Assembly (NCBI GenBank): GCA_024398105.1
Contig: JAKSJP010000008.1
Span: 1 to 64,000 of the forward strand
Direction: 5' to 3'
DNA: 64,000 bases
DNA from: Bacteroidales bacterium
GTDB lineage: Bacteria > Bacteroidota > Bacteroidia > Bacteroidales > UBA932
Shown: piece after piece, positions 26,777-39,220 of the stretch
Numbering within the stretch: position 1 is the first letter of the stretch
How the letters are laid out: every line of letters begins with the position of its first letter
The notes under the pieces: model-generated
Told to the model about the DNA's origin: nothing
Seen by the model: the letters and a program-made list of their open reading frames with translations, nothing else
Database searches by the model: none
Program-made: the position numbers and the translations under genes

Positions 26777-26817
26777 AACCAGTTATCTTCCGCTAAATCG
26801 TTTTTGACTGGTTTTTT
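26777..26817 (+). terminator. weak terminator-like hairpin upstream of the ilv promoter
   Basis: AACCAGT (26777-26783) pairs with ACTGGTT (26807-26813) over a 23-nt loop, followed by six T. It ends 2 nt before the -33 box of the ilv promoter. A promoter for it is not convincing (TAACTTGC at 26753 is one base short of the consensus). It may end an RNA started in the AT-rich region 26640-26760, where I see no gene. Confidence 0.4.
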
Positions 26818-26818
26818 C

Positions 26819-26850
26819 TTTGAATTTATCTTATCATTTAATAGATTTGC
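26819..26850 (+). promoter_or_regulatory. promoter of the ilv-leu operon
   Basis: TTTG (26819-26822), 19 nt, then TAGATTTGC (26842-26850) gives a full Bacteroidetes consensus. Expected start is near 26857, leaving about 21 nt before the leader-peptide ATG. Confidence 0.8.
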
Positions 26851-26877
26851 ACCCGAAACTTTAACAACAGGAATAAA

Positions 26878-26952
26878 ATGTCCAATCTTATCGTCGTCAT
26901 TCTCGTCGTCGTCCTTACCCTAAAGGTAGAAGGACTGGGAAAGCGCGCCTAA
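26878..26952 (+). CDS. branched-chain amino-acid leader peptide (attenuator)
   Basis: A 24-codon ORF whose product has 13 branched-chain residues: five Leu, six Val and two Ile. They are packed in codons 4-13 (LIVVILVVVL), with Leu15, Val17 and Leu20 after. It ends GKRA then TAA at 26950. It lies 21 nt after the expected transcription start and 25 nt before a terminator hairpin, directly ahead of ilvD. It is functionally like enterobacterial ilv leader peptides: translation speed through the Leu/Val/Ile codons senses charged tRNA. The assignment rests on composition, position and the RNA folds. Confidence 0.82.
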   Translation: MSNLIVVILVVVLTLKVEGLGKRA

Positions 26953-27010
26953 GATTTGAACAATGATAATTTAAAGAGCCTTTCTCAGTCAAACTGAAAA
27001 AGGCTTTTTT
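26911..27010 (+). promoter_or_regulatory. transcription attenuator of the ilv-leu operon
   Basis: Three exclusive hairpins can be drawn. Protector 1:2 is GTCCTTACC (26911-26919) with GGT (26925-26927) and AAGGAC (26930-26935). Antiterminator 2:3 is GACTGGGAAAG (26933-26943) with CTTTCTCAGTC (26980-26990), 11 pairs with one G-U. Terminator 3:4 is AGCCTTTCTCAGT (26977-26989) with ACTGAAAAAGGCT (26993-27005), one mismatch, then TTTTT to 27010. A ribosome stalled in codons 4-13 masks segment 1 and frees 2 to pair with 3, giving read-through; one reaching the stop covers 2 and lets 3:4 terminate. ilvD starts 20 nt after the T-run. Confidence 0.82.
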
Positions 27011-27029: not shown

Positions 27030-28871
27030 ATGGAAATGAAACATCAGTTGCGCAGCGCAGCTACCACCGAGGGCAGAAGAATGGCAGGAGCCAGGGCTCT
27101 CTGGGTTGCGACCGGAATGAAGAAGGAACAGATGGGCAAGCCTATCATCGCAGTGGTGAACTCCTTCACCCAGTTCGTACCGGGCCACACCCACCTCCAC
27201 GAGATCGGCCAGATCGTAAAGGCTGAGATCGAGAAGCTCGGCTGCTACGCTGCAGAGTTCAACACTATCGCAGTCGACGACGGCATCGCAATGGGCCACG
27301 ACGGAATGCTCTATTCCCTCCCTTCACGCGACATCATCGCAGACAGCGTGGAATACATGGTCAACGCGCACAAGGCCGACGCAATGGTATGCATCAGCAA
27401 CTGTGACAAGGTCACCCCTGGAATGCTCCTCGCAGCGATGAGACTCAACATCCCTGCAGTATTCGTGTCAGGCGGCCCTATGGAGGCAGGCAAGGTGAAC
27501 GGCGAGAACGCCGACCTCATCACTGCCATGATCAAGGGTGGTGACAACACCGTCAGCGACGAGGAACTCGACGTAGTTGAGCGTACAGCCTGCCCAGGCT
27601 GCGGAGCATGCTCAGGAATGTTCACCGCAAACTCGATGAACTCGCTCACCGAGGCCATCGGTCTTTCACTTCCGGGCAACGGATCCATCCTCGCCACACA
27701 CGTGAACCGTATCCAGCTCTTCAAGGATGCAGCAAAGCTCATCGTGAAGAACGCCTACGCATACTATCAGGACGGCGACGAGAGCGTACTCCCTAAGAGC
27801 ATCGCCACACGTCAGGCCTTCCTCAACGCCATGACCCTCGACATCGCGATGGGTGCGTCGACAAACACCGTCCTCCACCTTCTCGCAGTCGCAAACGAGG
27901 CAGGCGTGGACTTCAAGATGACCGACATCGACCAGCTCAGCCGCAAGGTTCCGTTCATCTGCAAGCTTTCCCCTAACTGGCAGAAATACAGCATCCAGGA
28001 GGAGAACCGTGCCGGCGGTATACTCGGTATCATGGGAGAACTCGCGAAGGGAGACCTCCTCGACCTCAGCTGCAAGAGAGTCAACGGTGCCACCCTCGGA
28101 GAGGACATCGTGAAGTACAGCATCACAGGCGAGCAGATCGACCCTGAGGCCGACCGTATCTACCGCAGCGCACCTGCAGGTAAGTTCAGCATCAGGATGG
28201 GCAGCCAGGACGCTCGTTGGGAGACCCTCGACACAGACCGTGAGAACGGATGTATCCGCGACCTCGAGCACGCATATACAAAGGACGGCGGAATGGCAGT
28301 CCTCTTCGGCAACATCGCACAGGACGGCTGCGTAGTCAAGACCGCAGGCGTCGCACAGGAGCTCTGGCACTTCGAAGGACCTGCAGTGGTATTCGACAGC
28401 CAGGAGGCAGCCTGCGACGGCATCCTCGGAGGAAAGGTAAAGAAGGGCGACTGCGTCGTCATCACATACGAAGGACCTAAGGGCGGACCTGGAATGCAGG
28501 AGATGCTCTACCCTACCTCATACATCAAGTCAATGCACATGGGCAAGGAATGTGCGCTCATCACCGACGGTCGCTTCAGCGGCGGTACCTCAGGTCTGAG
28601 CATCGGCCACATCTCCCCTGAGGCGGCAGCCGGCGGAAACATCGGTCTCGTAAGGGACGGAGACATCATCGTCATCGACATCCCTTCAAGAAGCATCGAC
28701 GTCAAGGTATCTGACGAGGAGCTCCAGGCAAGACGCGACGAGGAACTCGCAAGAGGAAAGAAGGCCTTCACACCTCCTATCAGGAACAGAGTCGTATCCA
28801 AGAGCCTCAAGGCATACGCGGCCATGGTAAGCTCTGCTGACAAGGGTGCGGTCAGAATCATCGAAGACTAG
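27030..28871 (+). CDS. ilvD: dihydroxy-acid dehydratase
   Basis: The 613-aa Fe-S enzyme removes water from dihydroxy-isovalerate and dihydroxy-methylvalerate, the third common step to Val and Ile. Cluster ligands lie in [12 protein letters not shown] near residue 125 and [17 protein letters not shown] near 190-206; [14 protein letters not shown] near 512 is the C-terminal signature. It is the first structural gene after the attenuator. Length matches the long IlvD type. Confidence 0.96.
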
Positions 28872-28898: not shown

Positions 28899-30620
28899 AT
28901 GGAAAATAAGATAATGTCTGGAGCGGACATTCTGCTCCAATCCCTCATCGACCAGGGAATAGATACCATCTTCGGTTACCCTGGCGGATCAATCATGCCG
29001 GTCTACGACAGGCTCTATGACTATGGAGACCGTCTCAGGCACATTCTCGTGAGACATGAGCAGGGTGCCATCCACGCAGCTCAGGGCTATGCCAGGGCAA
29101 AGCACTTCCCTGGTGCCGTGATCGTAACTTCAGGCCCAGGTGCGACAAATGTCATCACCGGCATCGCAGACGCGATGATCGATTCGACACCGCTTGTAGT
29201 CATCACAGGACAGGTAGGCGCCAACCTCCTTGGAACAGACGCGTTCCAGGAGACTGACGTGATCGGCCTCACCGGCCCTATCACAAAATGGAACTATCAG
29301 ATACGCAGGCCGGAAGATGTAGCATGGGCCGTTGCAAGGGCATTCTACATCGCAAAGAGCGGCCGTCCGGGCCCTGTCGTCCTTGACTTCGCCAAGAACG
29401 CACAGACAGGCATGGCTGAATATAAGAAAGAGCAGTGCAGCTTCATCAGAAGCTACGATCCGTATCCGGAGGTGAAGCTCGCTGACATCGCCAAGGCAGC
29501 GGACATGATCAACGCATCGAAGAGGCCTCTCATCGTATATGGCCAGGGCATCATCCTGGGCAATGCGGAGAAAGAACTTCTTTCCGTCATCGAGAAGGCA
29601 GACATCCCTGCAGGATCCACACTCCTCGGACTCAGCGGCATTCCTTCCGACTGCCCTAACTATCTAGGAATGGTGGGAATGCACGGAAACATCGCACCTA
29701 ACGTGATGACCCAGAAATGCGACCTGCTCATTGCAGTCGGAATGAGATTTGACGACCGTGTCACAGGTAAGACAGACGAATATGCAAAGCAGGCGAAGAT
29801 CATACACATCGACATCGACGCAGCAGAGATCAACAAGAACGTCAAGGTCGACCTCGGAATCATAGGCGATGCCAAGACCGTCCTTCCACGCATAGAGGCT
29901 CTTCTCGAGAAGAAGGACCACAGCGAGTGGAAGAAAGTCGCAGCCAAGTGCCGCGAGATCGAGGAAGAAAAGGTCATTGGTCCTGAATGCCGTCCTGGCA
30001 AGGGTTACATCAACATGGGTGAGGTCGTAGAGACCGTGGCAGAAGTCACCAAAGACTCAGCCATCATCATCACCGACGTCGGTGAGAACCAGATGATCGG
30101 CGCAAGATACTCACGCTACAACCAGACACGAAGCATGATCACTTCCGGTGGTCTCGGCACCATGGGATTCGGCCTTCCTGCAGCGATCGGCGCAAAGATC
30201 GGTGCACCGGAGAGACCAGTCTGCCTCTTCGTCGGAGACGGTGGCCTCCAGATGACGATCCAGGAGCTCGGCACCATCATGCAGGAGCATACAGGTGTGA
30301 AGATCGTACTTCTCAACAACAACTGGCTCGGTAACGTACGTCTCTGGCAGGAGCTCTTCTTCAACGAAAGATATTCTTTCACAAGGATGCTCAATCCTGA
30401 ATACAAGCTCATCGCCGACGCCTACGGAATCAGCTACAAGGTAGTGAACAGGAGAGAAGACCTCAGAGCTGCAGTCGAAGAGATGTTCGCTGACGACAAG
30501 CCATACCTCCTCAACGTGGAGGTGGAGGAGAAGGGAATGGTATTCCCTATGGTACCTCCGGGAAAGAGCGTGAGCGAAATCATGTTGAACAAGAAAGATT
30601 GGCTTGAATATGGCGAATAA
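28899..30620 (+). CDS. ilvB: acetolactate synthase large subunit
   Basis: The 573-aa thiamine-diphosphate enzyme condenses pyruvate with pyruvate or 2-oxobutyrate. The N-terminal FGYPGGSIMPVYD and catalytic Glu in RHEQGAIHAAQGYARA near residues 52-67 are present. The ThDP/Mg motif is GDGGLQMTIQELGT near 447 through NNNWLG. It begins 27 nt after ilvD and overlaps ilvN by 11 nt. Confidence 0.96.
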   Translation: MENKIMSGADILLQSLIDQGIDTIFGYPGGSIMPVYDRLYDYGDRLRHILVRHEQGAIHAAQGYARAKHFPGAVIVTSGPGATNVITGIADAMIDSTPLVVITGQVGANLLGTDAFQETDVIGLTGPITKWNYQIRRPEDVAWAVARAFYIAKSGRPGPVVLDFAKNAQTGMAEYKKEQCSFIRSYDPYPEVKLADIAKAADMINASKRPLIVYGQGIILGNAEKELLSVIEKADIPAGSTLLGLSGIPSDCPNYLGMVGMHGNIAPNVMTQKCDLLIAVGMRFDDRVTGKTDEYAKQAKIIHIDIDAAEINKNVKVDLGIIGDAKTVLPRIEALLEKKDHSEWKKVAAKCREIEEEKVIGPECRPGKGYINMGEVVETVAEVTKDSAIIITDVGENQMIGARYSRYNQTRSMITSGGLGTMGFGLPAAIGAKIGAPERPVCLFVGDGGLQMTIQELGTIMQEHTGVKIVLLNNNWLGNVRLWQELFFNERYSFTRMLNPEYKLIADAYGISYKVVNRREDLRAAVEEMFADDKPYLLNVEVEEKGMVFPMVPPGKSVSEIMLNKKDWLEYGE

Positions 30621-30924
30621 TTTATACGAAATAACCGTTTACTCGGAAAACCAGGTCGGTTTGCTCAGCTTCATTGCAAACACTTTCACAAGAAGAAGCA
30701 TCAACATCGAATCACTCAGGGTATTCCCTTCGGAGATTCCAGGAGTGCACAAGTTCACCATCAAGAGCCGTACGACTGAAGAGCAGATCCTCCAGGTCGT
30801 AAAGCAGATTGAAAAGAAGGTCGACGTACACAAGGCTTTCTACTACGTCGATGATGAAAGGCATGTCCGTGAGATCGAAGCCGTACAGGCTCTCATCGAC
30901 AGCAGAATGGAAGAAAACAGATAA
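30610..30924 (+). CDS. ilvN: acetolactate synthase small (regulatory) subunit
   Basis: The 104-aa protein is an ACT-domain subunit that stabilises IlvB and mediates valine feedback. ENQVGLLSFIANTFTRRSINIESL is split as ENQVGLLSFIANTFTRR near 13-29 and SINIESL after it, the usual ACT ligand region. It lacks the C-terminal domain of longer IlvH-type subunits. ATG at 30610 is used; an upstream TTG at 30604 is also in frame. It overlaps ilvB. Confidence 0.92.
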   Translation: MANNLYEITVYSENQVGLLSFIANTFTRRSINIESLRVFPSEIPGVHKFTIKSRTTEEQILQVVKQIEKKVDVHKAFYYVDDERHVREIEAVQALIDSRMEENR

Positions 30925-30930
30925 AAGTTA

Positions 30931-30971
30931 AAAATATAAAAAAGTAAACAAAAAATATAAAAAAGTAAACA
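30931..30971 (+). repeat. tandem duplicate of a 20-nt A-rich element before ilvC
   Basis: AAAATATAAAAAAGTAAACA occurs at 30931-30950 and again at 30952-30971 without change. The second copy ends 3 nt before the ilvC ATG at 30975. A-rich stretches just upstream of starts favour translation in Bacteroidetes, so the duplicate may raise ilvC output; this is inference. Confidence 0.8.
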
Positions 30972-30974
30972 ATT

Positions 30975-32024
30975 ATGGCAGTTTTGAACTTTGGCGGTGT
31001 CAACGAGACAGTCGTTACCCGCGACGAATTTACACTCGATCACGCAAGAGAGGTACTTAAGGACGAGAAGATCGCAGTCATCGGCTACGGTGTACAGGGT
31101 CCTGGTCAGGCTTGCAACCTCCGCGACAACGGTTTCAACGTAATCGTAGGTCAGCGTCAGGGAAAGACTTTCGAGAAGGCAATCGCTGACGGTTGGGTTC
31201 CAGGTGAGACACTCTTCTCAATCGAGGAGGCTGCAGAGCAGGCTTCAATCATCATGTGCCTCCTTTCTGACGCAGCTGTAATGTCAGTATGGCCGACACT
31301 CAAGCAGTACCTCACCCCAGGTAAGGCTCTCTACTTCTCACACGGTTTCGCTATCACATGGAACGACCGTACAGGCGTTGTCCCTGGATCAGACTATGAT
31401 GTGATCATGGTTGCTCCTAAGGGCTCAGGTACCTCACTCCGTACCATGTTCCTCGAGGGCCGTGGCCTCAACTCTTCATACGCTGTATATCAGGACGCTA
31501 CAGGCCGTGCAATGGAGCGCACACTCGCACTCGGTATCGGTATCGGTTCAGGTTACATGTTCGAGACTACATTCCAGCGTGAGGCTACTTCAGACCTTAC
31601 AGGTGAGCGTGGCTCACTCATGGGCGCTATCCAGGGTCTCCTCCTCGCACAGTACGAGGTTCTCCGTGAGAACGGTCACTCACCAAGTGAGGCATTCAAC
31701 GAGACAGTCGAGGAGCTTACCCAGTCACTCATGCCTCTCTTCGCTCAGAAGGGTATGGACTGGATGTACGCAAACTGCTCTACAACAGCACAGCGCGGTG
31801 CTCTTGACTGGATGGGTCCATTCCACGACGCTTGCAAGCCAGTTGTCGAGAAGCTCTACGCTTCTGTAAAGTGCGGTAACGAGGCTCAGATCTCTATCGA
31901 CGCAAACTCAAAGCCAGACTACCGTGTAGGTCTCGAGGCTGAGCTCAAGGCTCTCCGTGAGAGCGAGATGTGGCAGACCGCTGTCACAGTACGTTCACTC
32001 CGTCCTGAGAACGACAACAAGTAA
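30975..32024 (+). CDS. ilvC: ketol-acid reductoisomerase
   Basis: The 349-aa NADPH enzyme isomerises and reduces acetolactate and acetohydroxybutyrate. The Rossmann motif GYGVQGPGQACNLRDNG lies at about 38-54, APKGSG-like VAPKGSGTSLR near 142, and DLTGERGSLMGAIQG near 211 carries acidic metal ligands, with CSTTAQRGALDW near 270. Its codon choice (GGT, GCT, TCA) differs from the CTC/GAG/TCG-rich neighbours, as in the SusC/D genes, which suggests very high expression rather than transfer. Confidence 0.95.
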   Translation: MAVLNFGGVNETVVTRDEFTLDHAREVLKDEKIAVIGYGVQGPGQACNLRDNGFNVIVGQRQGKTFEKAIADGWVPGETLFSIEEAAEQASIIMCLLSDAAVMSVWPTLKQYLTPGKALYFSHGFAITWNDRTGVVPGSDYDVIMVAPKGSGTSLRTMFLEGRGLNSSYAVYQDATGRAMERTLALGIGIGSGYMFETTFQREATSDLTGERGSLMGAIQGLLLAQYEVLRENGHSPSEAFNETVEELTQSLMPLFAQKGMDWMYANCSTTAQRGALDWMGPFHDACKPVVEKLYASVKCGNEAQISIDANSKPDYRVGLEAELKALRESEMWQTAVTVRSLRPENDNK

Positions 32025-32045
32025 TAATAGAGAAACCATCCTTTA

Positions 32046-33545
32046 ATGGACAAGAACAAGGTTTACATATTCGACACCACGCTCCGCGACGGCGAGCAGG
32101 TTCCTGGATGTCAGCTCAATACCATTGAGAAGATCCAGGTAGCCAAGGCCCTCGAGGAGCTGGGCGTCGATGTGATCGAGGCAGGATTCCCTATCTCAAG
32201 CCCTGGCGACTTCAATTCAGTCGTCGAGATCTCCAAGGCAGTCACATGGCCTACCATCTGTGCTCTCACAAGAGCCGTTGAGAAGGACATCGACGTCGCT
32301 GCAGAGGCACTCCAGTACGCTAAGCACAAGAGAATCCATACCGGTATCGGTACATCTGACTCACACATCAGATACAAGTTCAACTCAACACGCGAGGAGA
32401 TCATCGAGCGTGCCGTCAAGGCTGTCAAGTACGCCAAGAAGTACGTCGAGGATGTCGAGTTCTACGCAGAGGATGCGGGAAGGACCGACAACGAGTATCT
32501 TGCAAGGGTCGTAGAGGCTGTCATCAAGGCCGGCGCCACAGTGGTCAACATCCCTGACACGACCGGTTACTGCCTCCCTGCCGAGTACGGCGAGAAGATC
32601 AAGTACCTCATGGAGCATGTCGACGGCATCGACAACGCGATCCTTTCCACACATTGCCACAACGACCTCGGAATGGCTACGGCCAACACCATGGCAGGTC
32701 TCCTCAACGGAGCCCGTCAGTGCGAGGTGACCATCAACGGTATCGGTGAGAGAGCCGGCAACACATCCCTCGAGGAAGTTGCCATGATCATGAAGTGCCA
32801 TAACGACATCAACCTCCACACAGACATCAACACGAGGAAGATCTACCCGCTCAGCCGTACCGTATCGAGCCTCATGAACATGCCGGTCCAGGCAAACAAG
32901 GCGATCGTCGGAAGAAATGCATTCGCACACTCTTCAGGCATCCACCAGGACGGCGTGCTCAAGAATGTCACGACTTACGAGATCATCGATCCTAAGGACA
33001 TCGGTCTCGACGACAACAACATCGCTCTTACAGCAAGAAGCGGACATGCCGCCCTCAAGTTCCGTCTCGAGGTGCTCGGCATCAAGCCTTCGAAGGAGAA
33101 GCTCGACATCCTCTATCAGGAGTTCCTGAAGCTTGCGGACAAGAAGAAGGAAGTCAACGACGACGACCTTCTCGTACTCGCAGGTGTGGAGAGGTCCGAG
33201 AACCAGCACATCAAGCTTGACTATCTCCAGGTGACCAGCGGTATGGGCGTACGTCCTGTAGCAAGCATCGGCCTTGACATCGCAGGTGAGAAGTTCGAGG
33301 CGGCTGCAAGCGGAAACGGTCCTGTGGACGCCGCGATCAAGGCTCTCAAGAACATCATCAAGCGTAACATGACCATCAAGGAGTTCACGATCCAGAATAT
33401 CACCAAGGGTTCCGACGACGTCGGCAAGGTGCATATGCAGGTCGAGAGCGACGGCCGTGTCTACTACGGTTTCGGTGTGAACACCGACATCATCACAGCT
33501 GCAGTCGAGGCTTACATCGACTGTATTAACAAGTTCAGCAAATAA
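32046..33545 (+). CDS. leuA: 2-isopropylmalate synthase
   Basis: The 499-aa enzyme condenses acetyl-CoA with 2-oxoisovalerate, the first leucine-specific step. Landmarks are [10 protein letters not shown] near residue 12, [11 protein letters not shown] near 46, [14 protein letters not shown] near 201 and [14 protein letters not shown] near 234. A LeuA regulatory domain for leucine feedback fills about 380-499. A second homologue lies three genes downstream; the [11 protein letters not shown] motif marks this one as the true LeuA. Confidence 0.92.
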
Positions 33546-33547
33546 CA

Positions 33548-34936
33548 ATGAATACTCTTTTTGACAAGATCTGGGATGCTCACGTAGTCAATATGATCGA
33601 AGACGGTCCTACCCAGCTCTATATCGACAGGCTCTACTGTCATGAGGTGACAAGCCCTCAGGCATTCGACACTCTCCGCGACAAGGGCATCAAGCCTTTC
33701 CGCGCAGACCATATCATCGCCATGCCTGACCACAACACACCTTCAGACCAGCAGGAGGAAATCACCGACCCTATCGGCCGCAAGCAGGTCGAGACACTCG
33801 CAGCTAACTGCGAGCAGTTCGGCATCAAGCATTTTGCCATGGGCACAAAGGACAATGGCATCATCCATGTCGTAGGTCCAGAGAAGGCTCTTTCACTCCC
33901 TGGCATGACAATCGTCTGCGGTGACTCGCACACATCTACCCACGGTGCAGTAGGTGCGATCGCAATGGGTATCGGCACATCGGAGGTAGCACAGGTGCTC
34001 GCATCGCAGTGCATCCTCCAGTCAAAGCCTAAGACTATGCGCATCAACATCGAGGGTGAGCTTCAGAACGGCGTGACCGCAAAGGACGTAGCTCTCTACA
34101 TCATGTCAAAGATGACTACCGCAGGAGCCACAGGCTTCGCAGTGGAGTACGCCGGTTCGACCATACGCAACATGTCCATGGAAGGCCGCCTCACCCTTTC
34201 CAACCTCTCGATCGAGATGGGTAGCCGCGCAGGCCTCATCGCTCCTGACGAGATCACCTTCGAGTATCTCAAGGGCCGCGAGTACGCTCCTAAGGGAGAG
34301 GCTTGGGACAAGGCTGTGGAAGAGTGGAAGAAGCTCCGCAGCGACGACGACGCAGTCTTCGACAAGGAAGTGACATACCAGGCAGAGGACATCAAGCCTC
34401 GCATCACATACGGCACCAACCCAGGCGCAGGTATCGCCATCGACGAGTGCATCCCTACGCTTGAGAGCATTCCTGAGGCAGAGCAGGGCCAGTTCCTCTC
34501 ACAGCTTCAGTACATGCAGTTCGAGCCGGGCGAGAAGCTCGAGGGCCATCCGGTCGACTACTGCTTCCTCGGAGCATGTACCAACGGCCGTATCGAGGAC
34601 TTCCGTGCGTTCGCAAGCGTAGTCAAGGGTAAGAAGAAGGCTGAGAACGTTGTCGCATGGCTCGTTCCGGGCTCATGGCTAGTGCGCAAGCAGATCATCG
34701 AGGAAGGCATCGACAAGATACTGGAGGAAGCCGGTTTCGAGCTCCGCCTCCCATCTTGCTCCGCATGTCTCGCGATGAATCCTGACAAGGTGCCTGCAGG
34801 CAAGCTCGCCATCTCTACAAGCAACAGAAATTTCGTAGGCCGTCAGGGCCCAGGCGCACGTACAGTCCTTGCTTCTCCGCTCGTGGTAGCGGCAAGTGCA
34901 GTCACAGGCGTAATTACAGACCCACGTAAAATCTAG
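33548..34936 (+). CDS. leuC: 3-isopropylmalate dehydratase large subunit
   Basis: The 462-aa aconitase-family subunit converts 2- to 3-isopropylmalate together with LeuD. The [4Fe-4S] Cys residues are in [13 protein letters not shown] near 338 and [13 protein letters not shown] near 398. [14 protein letters not shown] near 122 is also conserved. It starts 2 nt after leuA and ends 4 nt before leuD. Confidence 0.96.
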
Positions 34937-34940
34937 GACC

Positions 34941-35558
34941 ATGGCTAAGCAGAAATTCAATATCATCAAGTCGACATGCATTCCTATTGCAATCGACAAC
35001 TGCAATACAGACCTCATCATTCCTGCACGATATCTTGCATCGACCACACGTGATCCGAAGTTCTTCGGCGACGCGTTCATGCATGATCTCCGCTATGACG
35101 CACAGGGTGCACCGGTCTCTGACTTCGTGATGAACCTTCCTGAGTACTCAGAGGCTCCTCACGAGGGCGTGCACGAGATTGTCGTAGGCGGTCAGAACTG
35201 GGGCTCAGGATCAAGCCGCGAGCACGCAGCATGGGCTATCTCAGGCTACGGCGTACGCGTAGTGATCTCTTCAAGCTTCGCTGACATCCACCGCAACAAC
35301 CTTCTCAACTGCTTCGTCCTCCCTGTCATCGTAAGCAAGGAGTTCCAGCAGGAACTGTTCGAGTCAATCGCTGCGGATCCTCAGACAGTCGTGACAGTCG
35401 ACGTACCTAACCAGACAGTCACCAACGAGGCGACAGGAAAGAGCGAGTCATTCAGCATCAACGCATACAAGAAGCACTGCCTCATGAATGCGCTCGATGA
35501 CATCGACTACCTCCTCACCCAGAAGGACAAGATCGAAGAATACGAACAGAAAGCATAA
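34941..35558 (+). CDS. leuD: 3-isopropylmalate dehydratase small subunit
   Basis: The 205-aa swivel-domain partner of LeuC. NTDLIIPARYL near 22-32, GQNWGSGSSREHAAWAISGYG near 78-98 in parts, and SSSFADIHRNNLLNC near 106-120 are typical. Its stop overlaps the next start by 1 nt (TAATG). Confidence 0.95.
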   Translation: MAKQKFNIIKSTCIPIAIDNCNTDLIIPARYLASTTRDPKFFGDAFMHDLRYDAQGAPVSDFVMNLPEYSEAPHEGVHEIVVGGQNWGSGSSREHAAWAISGYGVRVVISSSFADIHRNNLLNCFVLPVIVSKEFQQELFESIAADPQTVVTVDVPNQTVTNEATGKSESFSINAYKKHCLMNALDDIDYLLTQKDKIEEYEQKA

Positions 35559-37087
35559 TGATAGAGATTCTTGACACAACCCTCCGTGACGGCGAGCAGA
35601 CAGCCGGCGTCTCGTTCAGTGCGGACGAGAAGCTTGCTATCGCGCGTCTTCTCCTCGACGAGCTGAAAGTCAACAGGATCGAGGTAGGCTCCGCCCGCGT
35701 CTCACGAGGTGAGCAGGAAGCCTTCGCAAAGATCTGCGGTTGGGCGGCCAAGGCCGGCCACATCGGAAAGATCGAGGCCCTCGGCTTCATTGACGGCGGC
35801 ATCTCTGTCGACTGGATCGCCACTGCGGGCGGAAAAGTCATCAACCTCCTCTCCAAGGGCTCGCTCAAGCATGTCACCGGACAGCTCAAGAAGACTCCTC
35901 AGCAGCATCTTGAAGATGTCCTCTCCAACATCGCCCTGGCCCACGCCAAAGGACTAGAGGTCAACCTCTATCTTGAGGACTGGTCCAACGGAATGCTCCA
36001 TTCCAAGGACTATGTCATGTTCATGATGGAGGGCCTCAAGGACGCAGGAATCAAGAGATTCATGCTTCCAGACACCCTTGGAATCCTCGATCCGGACGAG
36101 ACACGCGAGCTGGTGGCAGAGATGGTAAGGACATACCCTGATCTCCATTTCGACTACCATGCCCACAATGACTATGACCTCGCCGCCGGAAACGTCTTCG
36201 CAGCCCTCAAGGCCGGTGCACATGGACTCCATGTCACGGTAAACGGTCTTGGAGAGAGAGCCGGAAACGTTCCTGTCGCCAGCGTAGTCGGAATCCTCAA
36301 CGACCATCTCCACATCGAGAACACTCTCAACGAGGCCAAGCTGACACATGTCTGCAAGGTAGTAGAGTCGATCTCAGGCATACGCATCGCAGGCAACAAG
36401 CCTATCGTCGGCGAACTCGTGTTCACCCAGACCAGCGGCGTCCATGCCGACGGAGACAGGAAGGACGGCCTCTACCAGAACGACCTTCTTCCTGAAAGGT
36501 TCAACCGAGTACGCGAATACGCCCTCGGCAAGACCAGCGGCAAGGCCAACATCGTCAAGAACCTCGAAGCCCTCGGCATCAGCCTTGATCCGGAGCAGAT
36601 GAAGCTCGTGACGAAGAGAGTCGTCGAGCTCGGAGACAAGAAAGAGACCATGACCGCGGAAGACCTGCCGTTCATCATAGCGGATGTCCTCAAAGGCGGG
36701 CACCATGAACTCGAAGAAACCATACAGATCGTCAACTACAGCCTCAACCTTACCAGGAACCTCCGTCCTCTGGCGAACCTCAGGATCAGCATCGACGGTA
36801 CCGAGTACGAGGAAAGCGCTGTCGGCGACGGTCAGTACAATGCCTTCATGAACGCACTCTGGAAGATCTACAGCAAGCTTGGCAAGGACCACCCTATGCT
36901 CGCGGACTACCAGGTCAGCATCCCTCCGGGAGGAAAGACCGACGCGCTCGTGCAGACGACCATCACCTGGAGATGGAACGGCCGCAACTTCAGGACCCGC
37001 GGCATCGATTCCGACCAGACAGAAGCAGCCATCAAGGCTACCTCGAAGATGTTGAACATTATAGAAAACTCAGACATTAAACTTTAA
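35558..37087 (+). CDS. cimA: LeuA/CimA-family acyltransferase, probably citramalate synthase
   Basis: The 509-aa product belongs to the isopropylmalate/homocitrate/citramalate synthase family. [13 protein letters not shown] near residue 7, [14 protein letters not shown] near 199 and [13 protein letters not shown] near 229 form the active-site barrel, and a C-terminal regulatory domain covers about 370-509. It differs from leuA at the substrate loop ([15 protein letters not shown]). Citramalate from pyruvate and acetyl-CoA would feed LeuCDB to 2-oxobutyrate and so to isoleucine; no ilvA is in the operon. A second isopropylmalate synthase is the alternative. Related genomes carry a homologue at this place. 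Confidence 0.65.
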
Positions 37088-37091
37088 TAAG

Positions 37092-38162
37092 ATGAAATTC
37101 AAGATTGCCAAGCTTCCAGGAGACGGTATCGGTCCGGAAGTCGTTGAACAGGCCGTGAAGGCCGTTGACGCCATCTGTGCGAAATTCGGCCACGAGGTCG
37201 AGTATTCATTCGGATACGTCGGAGCATGTGCCATCGACAAGTATGGTGACGCATATCCACAGGAGACACACGAGACCTGCCTCAACGCAGACGCAGTGCT
37301 CTTCGGTGCAGTAGGTGACCCTAAATACGACAACAACCCTACAGCAAAGGTACGCCCTGAGCAGGGCCTCCTCGCAATGAGGAAGCAGCTCGGTCTCTTC
37401 GCGAACCTCCGTCCTGTCGAGACTTTCAAGAGCCTCGTGCACAAAAGTCCTCTCAAGGAAGAGCTCGTAGACGGCGCAGACTTCCTCTGCATGCGTGAGC
37501 TCACCGGCGGCATGTACTTCGGCGCAAAGGGCCGCGAGGACAACGGCGACACCGCATATGACACCAACCTCTACCACAGATATGAGGTAGAGCGCATCCT
37601 CAAGCTCTCATACGAGTACGCACGCAACCGCCGCAAACACCTCACCGTAGTGGACAAGGCCAACGTCCTCGAGTCTTCACGTCTGTGGAGACAGGTAGCA
37701 CAGGAGATGGCTCCTCAGTATCCTGACGTAGAGACAGACTACATGTACGTCGACAACGCTGCGATGAAGCTCATCACAGGTCCTAAGTTCTTCGACGTCC
37801 TCGTGACCGAGAACACCTTCGGTGACATCCTTACCGATGAGGCAAGCTGCGTATCGGGTTCAATGGGTCTCCTCGCATCGGCTTCAGTGGGCGAGCACAC
37901 CTCAGTGTTCGAGCCTATCCACGGTTCATATCCTCAGGCAGCAGGCAAGAACATCGCCAACCCTCTCGCAACCATCCTTTCAGCAGCCATGATGTTCGAA
38001 TACGCATTCGGTCTCATGGAGGAAGGCAAGGCTATCCGCGCGGCAGTCGCAGCATCGATCGACGCGAACATCGTCACCGAAGACCTTGCAGCCCCAGGCG
38101 AGAAGAAGTACTCTACCTCAGAGGTAGGTGACTGGGTTGCAGACTACATCTCAAAGAACTAG
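37092..38162 (+). CDS. leuB: 3-isopropylmalate dehydrogenase
   Basis: The 356-aa NAD enzyme oxidises and decarboxylates 3-isopropylmalate (and 3-methylmalate if citramalate is made). GDGIGPEVV near residues 10-18, [11 protein letters not shown] near 136, [10 protein letters not shown] near 217, and GDILTDEAS plus [12 protein letters not shown] near 244-265 are the usual substrate, metal and cofactor regions. It lies 4 nt after cimA. Confidence 0.95.
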
Positions 38163-38179
38163 AATAAACTACAATAACT

Positions 38180-39220
38180 ATGGCAGAAATGGATTGGTCT
38201 AATCTTTCTTTCCAGTACAGAAAGACTAATGCTATCATCGTCAGCTACTACAAGGACGGCGAATGGTCGCCTTTGACAGCTACAAAGGATTTTGATTTCC
38301 ACTTCAGCGCATTCGCTGGTGTGTTCCACTATGCAAACGCATGCTTCGAGGGTCTCAAGGCCTTCAGAGGCGTGGACGGCAAGGTACGTCTTTTCCGCCC
38401 TGATGAGAATGCAAAGAGAATCCAGAGAAGTGCCGGACACCTTGACATGGCATATCCTAGCGAGGAGATGTTCATCGAGGCCTGCATGATGGCTGTAAGA
38501 GAGAACATCGAATTCCTTCCTCCTTACGGATATGGTGCTTCAATGTACCTGCGTCCAGTGATCATCGGCATCAACCCTCAGCTCGGAATCGCTTCTTCAA
38601 AGGAAGTGATCTTCGCTGTGATGTGCGCTCCTGTAGGCACATATTCAGGTGCAAAGATCCTTACCCCTGGCACAGCAGTGCTCGCAAGGAACTACGACCG
38701 CGCTGCTCCTAACGGAACAGGTTCATACAAGATCGCAGCGAACTACGCTACATCGCTCCACCCATACAACCTCGCTCACAAGCAGGGCTACAGGGAGCTC
38801 CTCTTCCTCGATCCTGCCACAAAGACCAAGGTCGATGAGTTCGGTTCATCGAACTTCCTCGCAATCAAGGGTAACACCTACGTGACACCTCTTTCTGACT
38901 CAGTCCTTCCTTCAATCACCAACAAGACCCTCCAGGCAGTTGCACAGGATTTCGGCATGACAGTAGAGAAGAGAGTCATTCCTGTAGAGGAAATCGCCGA
39001 GTTCGAGGAGATCAATGCCTGCGGTACAGCAGTAGTCATCACTCCTATCTGCTCTGTCGACGACAAGCCTACCCTCGAAAGCACAGAGATCACCAGGACC
39101 TACAACGTCCCTTCCGGCGACGAGTGCGGTAAGGTCAGCCGCAAGATGTACGACCGCATCCGCGGCATCCAGGACGGTCTCGAAGAGGATACCCACAACT
39201 GGAACTTCTTCCTTGACTAG
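38180..39220 (+). CDS. ilvE: branched-chain amino-acid aminotransferase
   Basis: The 346-aa class IV PLP enzyme transfers the amino group in the last step to Val, Leu and Ile. ACFEGLKAFRG near 54-64, the PLP Lys184 in GTGSYKIAANYATS, and EFGSSNFLAIKG near 225 are characteristic of the eukaryote-like BCAT type. Last gene of the operon; a strong terminator begins 26 nt after its stop. Confidence 0.95.
   Translation: MAEMDWSNLSFQYRKTNAIIVSYYKDGEWSPLTATKDFDFHFSAFAGVFHYANACFEGLKAFRGVDGKVRLFRPDENAKRIQRSAGHLDMAYPSEEMFIEACMMAVRENIEFLPPYGYGASMYLRPVIIGINPQLGIASSKEVIFAVMCAPVGTYSGAKILTPGTAVLARNYDRAAPNGTGSYKIAANYATSLHPYNLAHKQGYRELLFLDPATKTKVDEFGSSNFLAIKGNTYVTPLSDSVLPSITNKTLQAVAQDFGMTVEKRVIPVEEIAEFEEINACGTAVVITPICSVDDKPTLESTEITRTYNVPSGDECGKVSRKMYDRIRGIQDGLEEDTHNWNFFLD

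Follow-up and report, generated by a model that had tools for sequence, protein, structure and literature searches.

The ilv-leu genes of this Bacteroidales genome are most likely controlled by a leader-peptide (ribosome-mediated) transcription attenuator, a reading to which we assign, from the sequence, a probability of roughly 0.9. The element lies just ahead of ilvD in the window, the stretch of 64,000 nucleotides analysed here (Table 1). A preliminary description had proposed ribosome-stalling attenuation at this site, and comparison with relatives supports that proposal: the leader ORF is kept in many of them, the antiterminator and terminator carry compensatory changes, and there is a promoter upstream. 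The first structural gene, ilvD, and the genes ilvB, ilvC, leuA, leuC, leuD and leuB all score above their NCBIfam cut-offs, and the ORF in the ilvN position matched no NCBIfam family at 1e-20. Judging from spacing, ilvD and the genes that follow it in the same direction probably form one operon. The nearest named locus among the matches listed (L031) comes from a Candidatus Cryptobacteroides MAG, and the window therefore probably belongs to that genus.

Table 1. Positions of the leader elements and genes in the window.
Feature	Position	Strand	Basis or remark
Promoter, Bacteroidota type	26819-26849	+	Motif match: TTTG (26819-26822), 19-nt spacer, TAGATTTG (26842-26849)
Leader ORF, 24 codons and stop	26878-26952	+	ORF scan, codon count, conservation; ATG at 26878, stop at 26950-26952
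Hairpin 1:2, as first drawn	26911-26935	+	Folds here; only basal GUCC/GGAC kept in genus
Antiterminator strand 2, GACTGGGAAAG	26933-26943	+	Shuffles, arm swaps, genus covariation
Strand 3, CTTTCTCAGTC	26980-26990	+	Pairs with strand 2 or with terminator 3' arm
Intrinsic terminator	26977-27010	+	Hairpin 26977-27005 and T-run 27005-27010
ilvD	27030-28871	+	Above NCBIfam TIGR00110 cut-off
Genes 3' of ilvD	28899-38162	+	ilvB, ilvN-position ORF, ilvC, leuA, leuC, leuD, citramalate-synthase-like, leuB
ilvB	28899-30620	+	Above NCBIfam cut-off
ilvN-position ORF	30604-30924	+	106 aa
Citramalate-synthase-like gene	35558-37087	+	Below its NCBIfam cut-offs
Branched-chain aminotransferase-like ORF	38180-39220	+	Presumably ilvE

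The leader ORF, MSNLIVVILVVVLTLKVEGLGKRA, has the 24 codons described before, and a recount gives the same 13 codons for Leu, Ile or Val (5 Leu, 6 Val and 2 Ile), with 12 such residues in its densest stretch of 14. Each ATG-initiated ORF of 10-40 codons was given a score, the highest number of Leu/Ile/Val residues in any 14-residue stretch, and high-scoring ORFs lie before ilvD far more often than expected by chance. Within 300 nt of ilvD, 81 of 242 upstream regions score at least 9, against 2.8 expected from shuffles, and 35 and 15 regions score at least 11 and at least 12, with an expectation of 0.0 each; the fraction of dinucleotide shuffles with a score of at least 12 was 0.0000 as printed (9680 shuffles, 40 for each of the 242 regions). 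None of these regions scores at least 9 for any of six other three-residue sets. When the window was cut into 1274 tiles and read on both strands, a score of 12 appeared only in two overlapping tiles containing the leader ORF, and no other ORF in the 64 kb scored at least 10; among 2258 control tiles from other loci, one scored at least 12 and 14 scored at least 9. PMC1183508 discusses codon bias in attenuation leaders, including CUA as a control codon in the leu leader, and cautions that rarity by itself is an insufficient explanation. The present leader favours codons that are scarce in the window's genes: in 12 of those genes the share of CTA among 425 Leu codons is 0.9% and that of ATT among 357 Ile codons is 7.6%, compared with one of five and one of two in the leader. 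In nine leaders of the genus the corresponding counts are 6 of 42 and 18 of 26, the baseline being the genes of the window rather than each relative's own genome.

The consensus promoter reported earlier lies 28 nt upstream of the leader ATG and is of the Bacteroidota type. Given this motif, transcription is expected to start at about 26855, and thus upstream of 26880. A survey of 74 leader loci (score at least 9 and a terminator, the group L135-L163 set aside) found an exact TAnnTTTG 13-63 nt before the leader ATG (median 22.5) in 58, compared with 6% of base-shuffled stretches, and 47 of the loci with this motif carry, in addition, a TTG at roughly the expected spacing. A sigma-70-type match in the window (TTGACT/TATCTT, 26804-26832) was dropped in favour of the Bacteroidota-type promoter.

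Three overlapping stems had been drawn in the preliminary description. Two of them, the antiterminator (2:3) and the terminator (3:4), are present and have undergone compensatory changes within the genus, and the third, 26911-26935 (1:2), is without covariation. The inverted repeat of the terminator, which a consensus scanner gave on the minus strand only, folds as a hairpin followed by a run of T before ilvD, and a terminator was called at this place in 93 of 97 leaders scoring at least 8. The 2:3 duplex of the window has 11 pairs, one of them G-U, and is better than 200 of 200 shuffles of its region. Across the 93 leaders with a terminator, the best duplex that the terminator 5' arm can form with the upstream region outscores 95% of shuffles in 62, with 37 leaders ahead of at least 199 of 200 shuffles, and falls below the 95% mark in 31. 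One group, L135-L163, with Val-rich ORF ends and Chlorobia-like at our guess, passes in only 2 of 11 leaders with a called terminator and therefore carries no stem claim; once it is removed, 60 of 82 leaders pass. Within the genus, 7 of the 12 leaders tested reach the 95% mark, the exceptions being L003 (0.67), L004 (0.09), L017 (0.055), L026 (0.11) and L132 (0.98); these 12 leave out L031, the closest named relative, where no T-rich terminator was called.

Strands 2 and 3 also appear fitted to one another within a locus. Over 74 loci, own strands pair with a mean of -14.5 kcal/mol versus -10.2 for species-swapped strands, a gap of about 4 (Wilcoxon p 3e-13, a value that is too small because the loci are related), and the own arm is among the best 5% against swapped arms in 34 of the 74. 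In an alignment of 11 genus sequences, which omits L003 and L132 (both fail the shuffle test), 6 of the 11 pairs of 2:3 have changes on both sides and 87.3% of cells are paired, a level that 0 of 500 shuffles equal; slid versions of the duplex give at most 59.2%. With all 13 leaders aligned, L003 and L132 included, both-sided changes again occur at 6 of 11 pairs and 81.8% of cells are paired; of 500 shuffles, none is as high on four of the five measures and 14 are on the fifth. The terminator has both-sided changes at 6 of its 12 pairs in the 11-sequence alignment. Strand 2 of the window is coding, and its conservation could therefore partly reflect the peptide.

If the attenuator works as we propose, a ribosome would load at the 24-codon ORF on a transcript begun near 26855, and Shine-Dalgarno pairing would probably play no part. 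A shortage of charged Leu-, Val- or Ile-tRNA would make this ribosome stall within codons 4-13 and leave strand 2 free as strand 3 emerges, such that the antiterminator could form and RNA polymerase could continue into ilvD. When amino acids are plentiful, the ribosome would reach the stop codon and cover strand 2, strand 3 would join the terminator 3' arm, and transcription would end at 27005-27010. Leader translation, stalling, termination and the response to three amino acids are all predictions from the DNA. In ViennaRNA folds, with the ribosome assumed to reach about 14 nt beyond its A site, the freed RNA is predicted to adopt 2:3 when the ribosome is at codon 9 or 13, even with the terminator complete, and the 3:4 terminator when it is at the stop codon. 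For a ribosome halted at codon 15 the outcome is borderline, the predicted fold being the terminator once 27008 is reached. With no ribosome, the predicted fold is 2:3 for RNA ending at 26994 and 3:4 for RNA ending at 27008.

The upstream hairpin 1:2 exists in the window, at -8.3 kcal/mol. In the 11-sequence genus alignment it shows no covariation, with 61.6% of its cells paired and 387 of 500 shuffles as high; its four basal pairs, GUCC/GGAC, are kept in 7 to 11 of the 11 sequences, and there the comparative support for this hairpin as an attenuator stem stops. Across the 74 loci, own 1:2 pairing is slightly better than swapped (mean -9.4 vs -8.5 kcal/mol, p 0.002) and falls in the best tenth in 16, and the window's own pairing is no better than swapped (rank 0.47). 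Comparative support therefore extends to 2:3 and 3:4 only. It is possible, although we would not bet on it, that the same mechanism operates here in a two-state form, in which there is no dedicated protector hairpin, strand 2 is blocked by a ribosome terminating at or close to the stop codon, and read-through is the default when the leader goes untranslated. The slight advantage of own over swapped 1:2 pairing and the lack of covariation in 1:2 as drawn would fit such a form, as would the position of strand 2 in the 82 leaders that have a terminator and lie outside L135-L163: it overlaps the stop codon in 35, of which 28 have TGA, and begins at or just past the stop in 20 more. In the window, however, strand 2 ends before the stop codon and the complete leader without a ribosome folds into 3:4 plus a 1:2-type stem, and the retention of the four basal pairs in the genus also speaks against it. 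We tentatively speculate that Bacteroidota may run a broad set of two-state attenuators, for branched-chain amino acids, His, Trp and Phe/Tyr, in which the leader stop, often UGA, lies in or beside the antiterminator strand and the terminating ribosome is the switch. If true, this would mean that transcription and translation are closely coupled in the phylum.

Two further readings were set against attenuation by a leader peptide. The encoded peptide is hydrophobic, and the ORF comes with a promoter motif and a terminator, as might be expected if it encoded a small peptide with a function of its own, the hairpin being merely its terminator and the ilv genes being read through or separately transcribed. 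But the peptide sequences vary freely among relatives while their Leu/Ile/Val content persists, strand 2 changes in step with strand 3, and leaders ahead of his, trp and phe genes are enriched instead in the residues of those pathways, and we consider this reading very improbable. Control of the terminator by a riboswitch, T-box or protein-binding leader, elements for which a terminator and a competing stem are typical too, is extremely improbable, as it would leave the Leu/Ile/Val ORF unexplained, no Rfam 15 covariance model reaches its gathering score at the leader, and the sole match up to E 1 is to a Streptococcus sRNA family (E 0.65; 20.2 bits vs a gathering score of 48).

A short Leu/Val/Ile-rich ORF before ilvD proves to be widespread, though not universal, in related Bacteroidales. 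At a score of at least 9, the leader is found in 23 of 27 relatives from the genus and order (30 loci from 26 of 61 genomes with a match, used without L028, whose start is missing, and without the distant paralogue pieces L029 and L030, which count among the 242 regions and in none of the distribution groups). A wider sample of the order has it at 36 of 52 loci (all new, from 69 of 148 genomes with a match, partial and paralogous places omitted). Upstream of ilvD at L009, L010 and L013, from the same genus, no leader was found. The phylum sample (81 loci, with matches in 147 of 198 genomes) has it in 6 of the 29 loci L135-L163 and in 11 of 52 others. Among the best 80 named loci of the matches listed, many labelled Prevotella or Prevotellaceae, 5 have a leader and 75 are without one at the score used. 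L032-L109, many of them Prevotella-labelled among the matches listed, are nearly all without a Leu/Ile/Val leader at this score, and leader control seems to have been lost or replaced there. A few loci under the cut, for instance L064 with a score of 8, nevertheless resemble leaders and have a fitting strand 2.

In trees of 36 selected loci, the IlvD proteins of the window and L031 fall inside a clade made up largely of MAGs from Prevotellaceae/Bacteroidaceae (support 100/98), whereas the N-terminal region of IlvB clusters with L003, within the window's own genus (100/98). It seems that a foreign ilvD copy replaced the native one in place and that the attenuator was retained. One relative, G012, has two ilvD copies (L004 and L027), each preceded by a Leu/Ile/Val leader and a terminator.

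The mechanism is long known from textbooks, and the present case is ordinary in kind and little described in this group. The ilvGMEDA, ilvBN and leu operons of E. coli and Salmonella, given as attenuated in PMC1183508, share with it the pathway, a short leader ORF rich in the relevant residues, and a choice between terminator and antiterminator. Unlike in those systems, the host phylum is reported to do without Shine-Dalgarno use (available parts of PMC6847099 and PMC9976891), the upstream hairpin of the window is unsupported, and no Rfam leader family matches the window. The ilvBNC uORF of Corynebacterium (ilvB-II motif) is likewise rich in branched-chain residues and tied to ilv attenuation, according to PMC10272879. 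It differs from the window in phylum and in its first gene, ilvB rather than ilvD. Flavobacterium psychrophilum is of the same phylum as the window and of a different class-level lineage. PMC9723704 speaks of "strong clues" for leader-peptide control in that species; "ilv" is absent from its main text, and the operons are in its supplement. In 2010, PMC2965389 gave Proteobacteria and Actinobacteria as the sole groups with known leader-peptide systems and added Firmicutes. Passages of PMC7366714 describe Bacteroides thetaiotaomicron sORFs that call leader peptides to mind, those of PMC8305728, on the his genes of the superphylum, mention attenuation for enterobacteria only, and those of PMC8632094 place an ilvD-associated motif in Veillonella only. 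Our search for literature on an ilv or ilvD leader peptide or attenuation in Bacteroidetes found no paper; the broad attenuation survey of Lopatovskaya et al. (2010, Mol Biol 44:128) may already include some cases from the phylum. The present work adds comparative evidence for the individual stems and the recurrence of such leaders across four pathways of a single genome. It suggests in simple terms how these bacteria may gauge the amino acids available to them, and it supplies defined sequences for testing whether ribosomes closely follow RNA polymerase in a phylum whose translation reportedly begins without Shine-Dalgarno pairing.

Analogous leaders precede other amino-acid genes. hisG, Anth_synt_I_N (trpE) and prephenate dehydratase were each sought in 51 genomes and matched in 26, 17 and 36. 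By script, a His-rich leader with a terminator was called before hisG at 23 of 26 loci, a Trp-rich one at 10 of 19 trpE loci (at L286-L288 the match covers just part of the trpE domain), and a Phe/Tyr-rich one before prephenate dehydratase at 17 of 30 loci (30 of 38 places); some of these calls, such as L253, are doubtful. A look by eye at the two best ORFs of each homoserine dehydrogenase locus (L289-L318) saw no Thr/Ile leader stand out. The window's own genome has a His leader, MTMIHSHKHHHQI (L262), before hisG, a Phe/Tyr leader, MTAASRFFGRFYFYYVPQSK (L331), before prephenate dehydratase, and a Trp leader, MANNSFFWWRWHSRHTQS (L279), which is separated from the trpE domain by some 1.4 kb and thus by another gene; each of the three has a terminator. 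In view of these, leader-peptide control looks like a general habit of this genome. A mirror form in the trp leaders, in which a GTCGTGA-like stretch near the stop would pair with the terminator 3' arm, was tried and rejected: own pairing averaged -11.1 versus -9.9 kcal/mol swapped over 12 loci, and the window's genome ranked last. In the trp leaders L270, L273, L277, L279 and L284, a stop-proximal stretch resembling GTCGTGA/GTCGTAA is similar to the terminator 5' arm and could, with weak support from the arm swaps, pair with the 3' arm.
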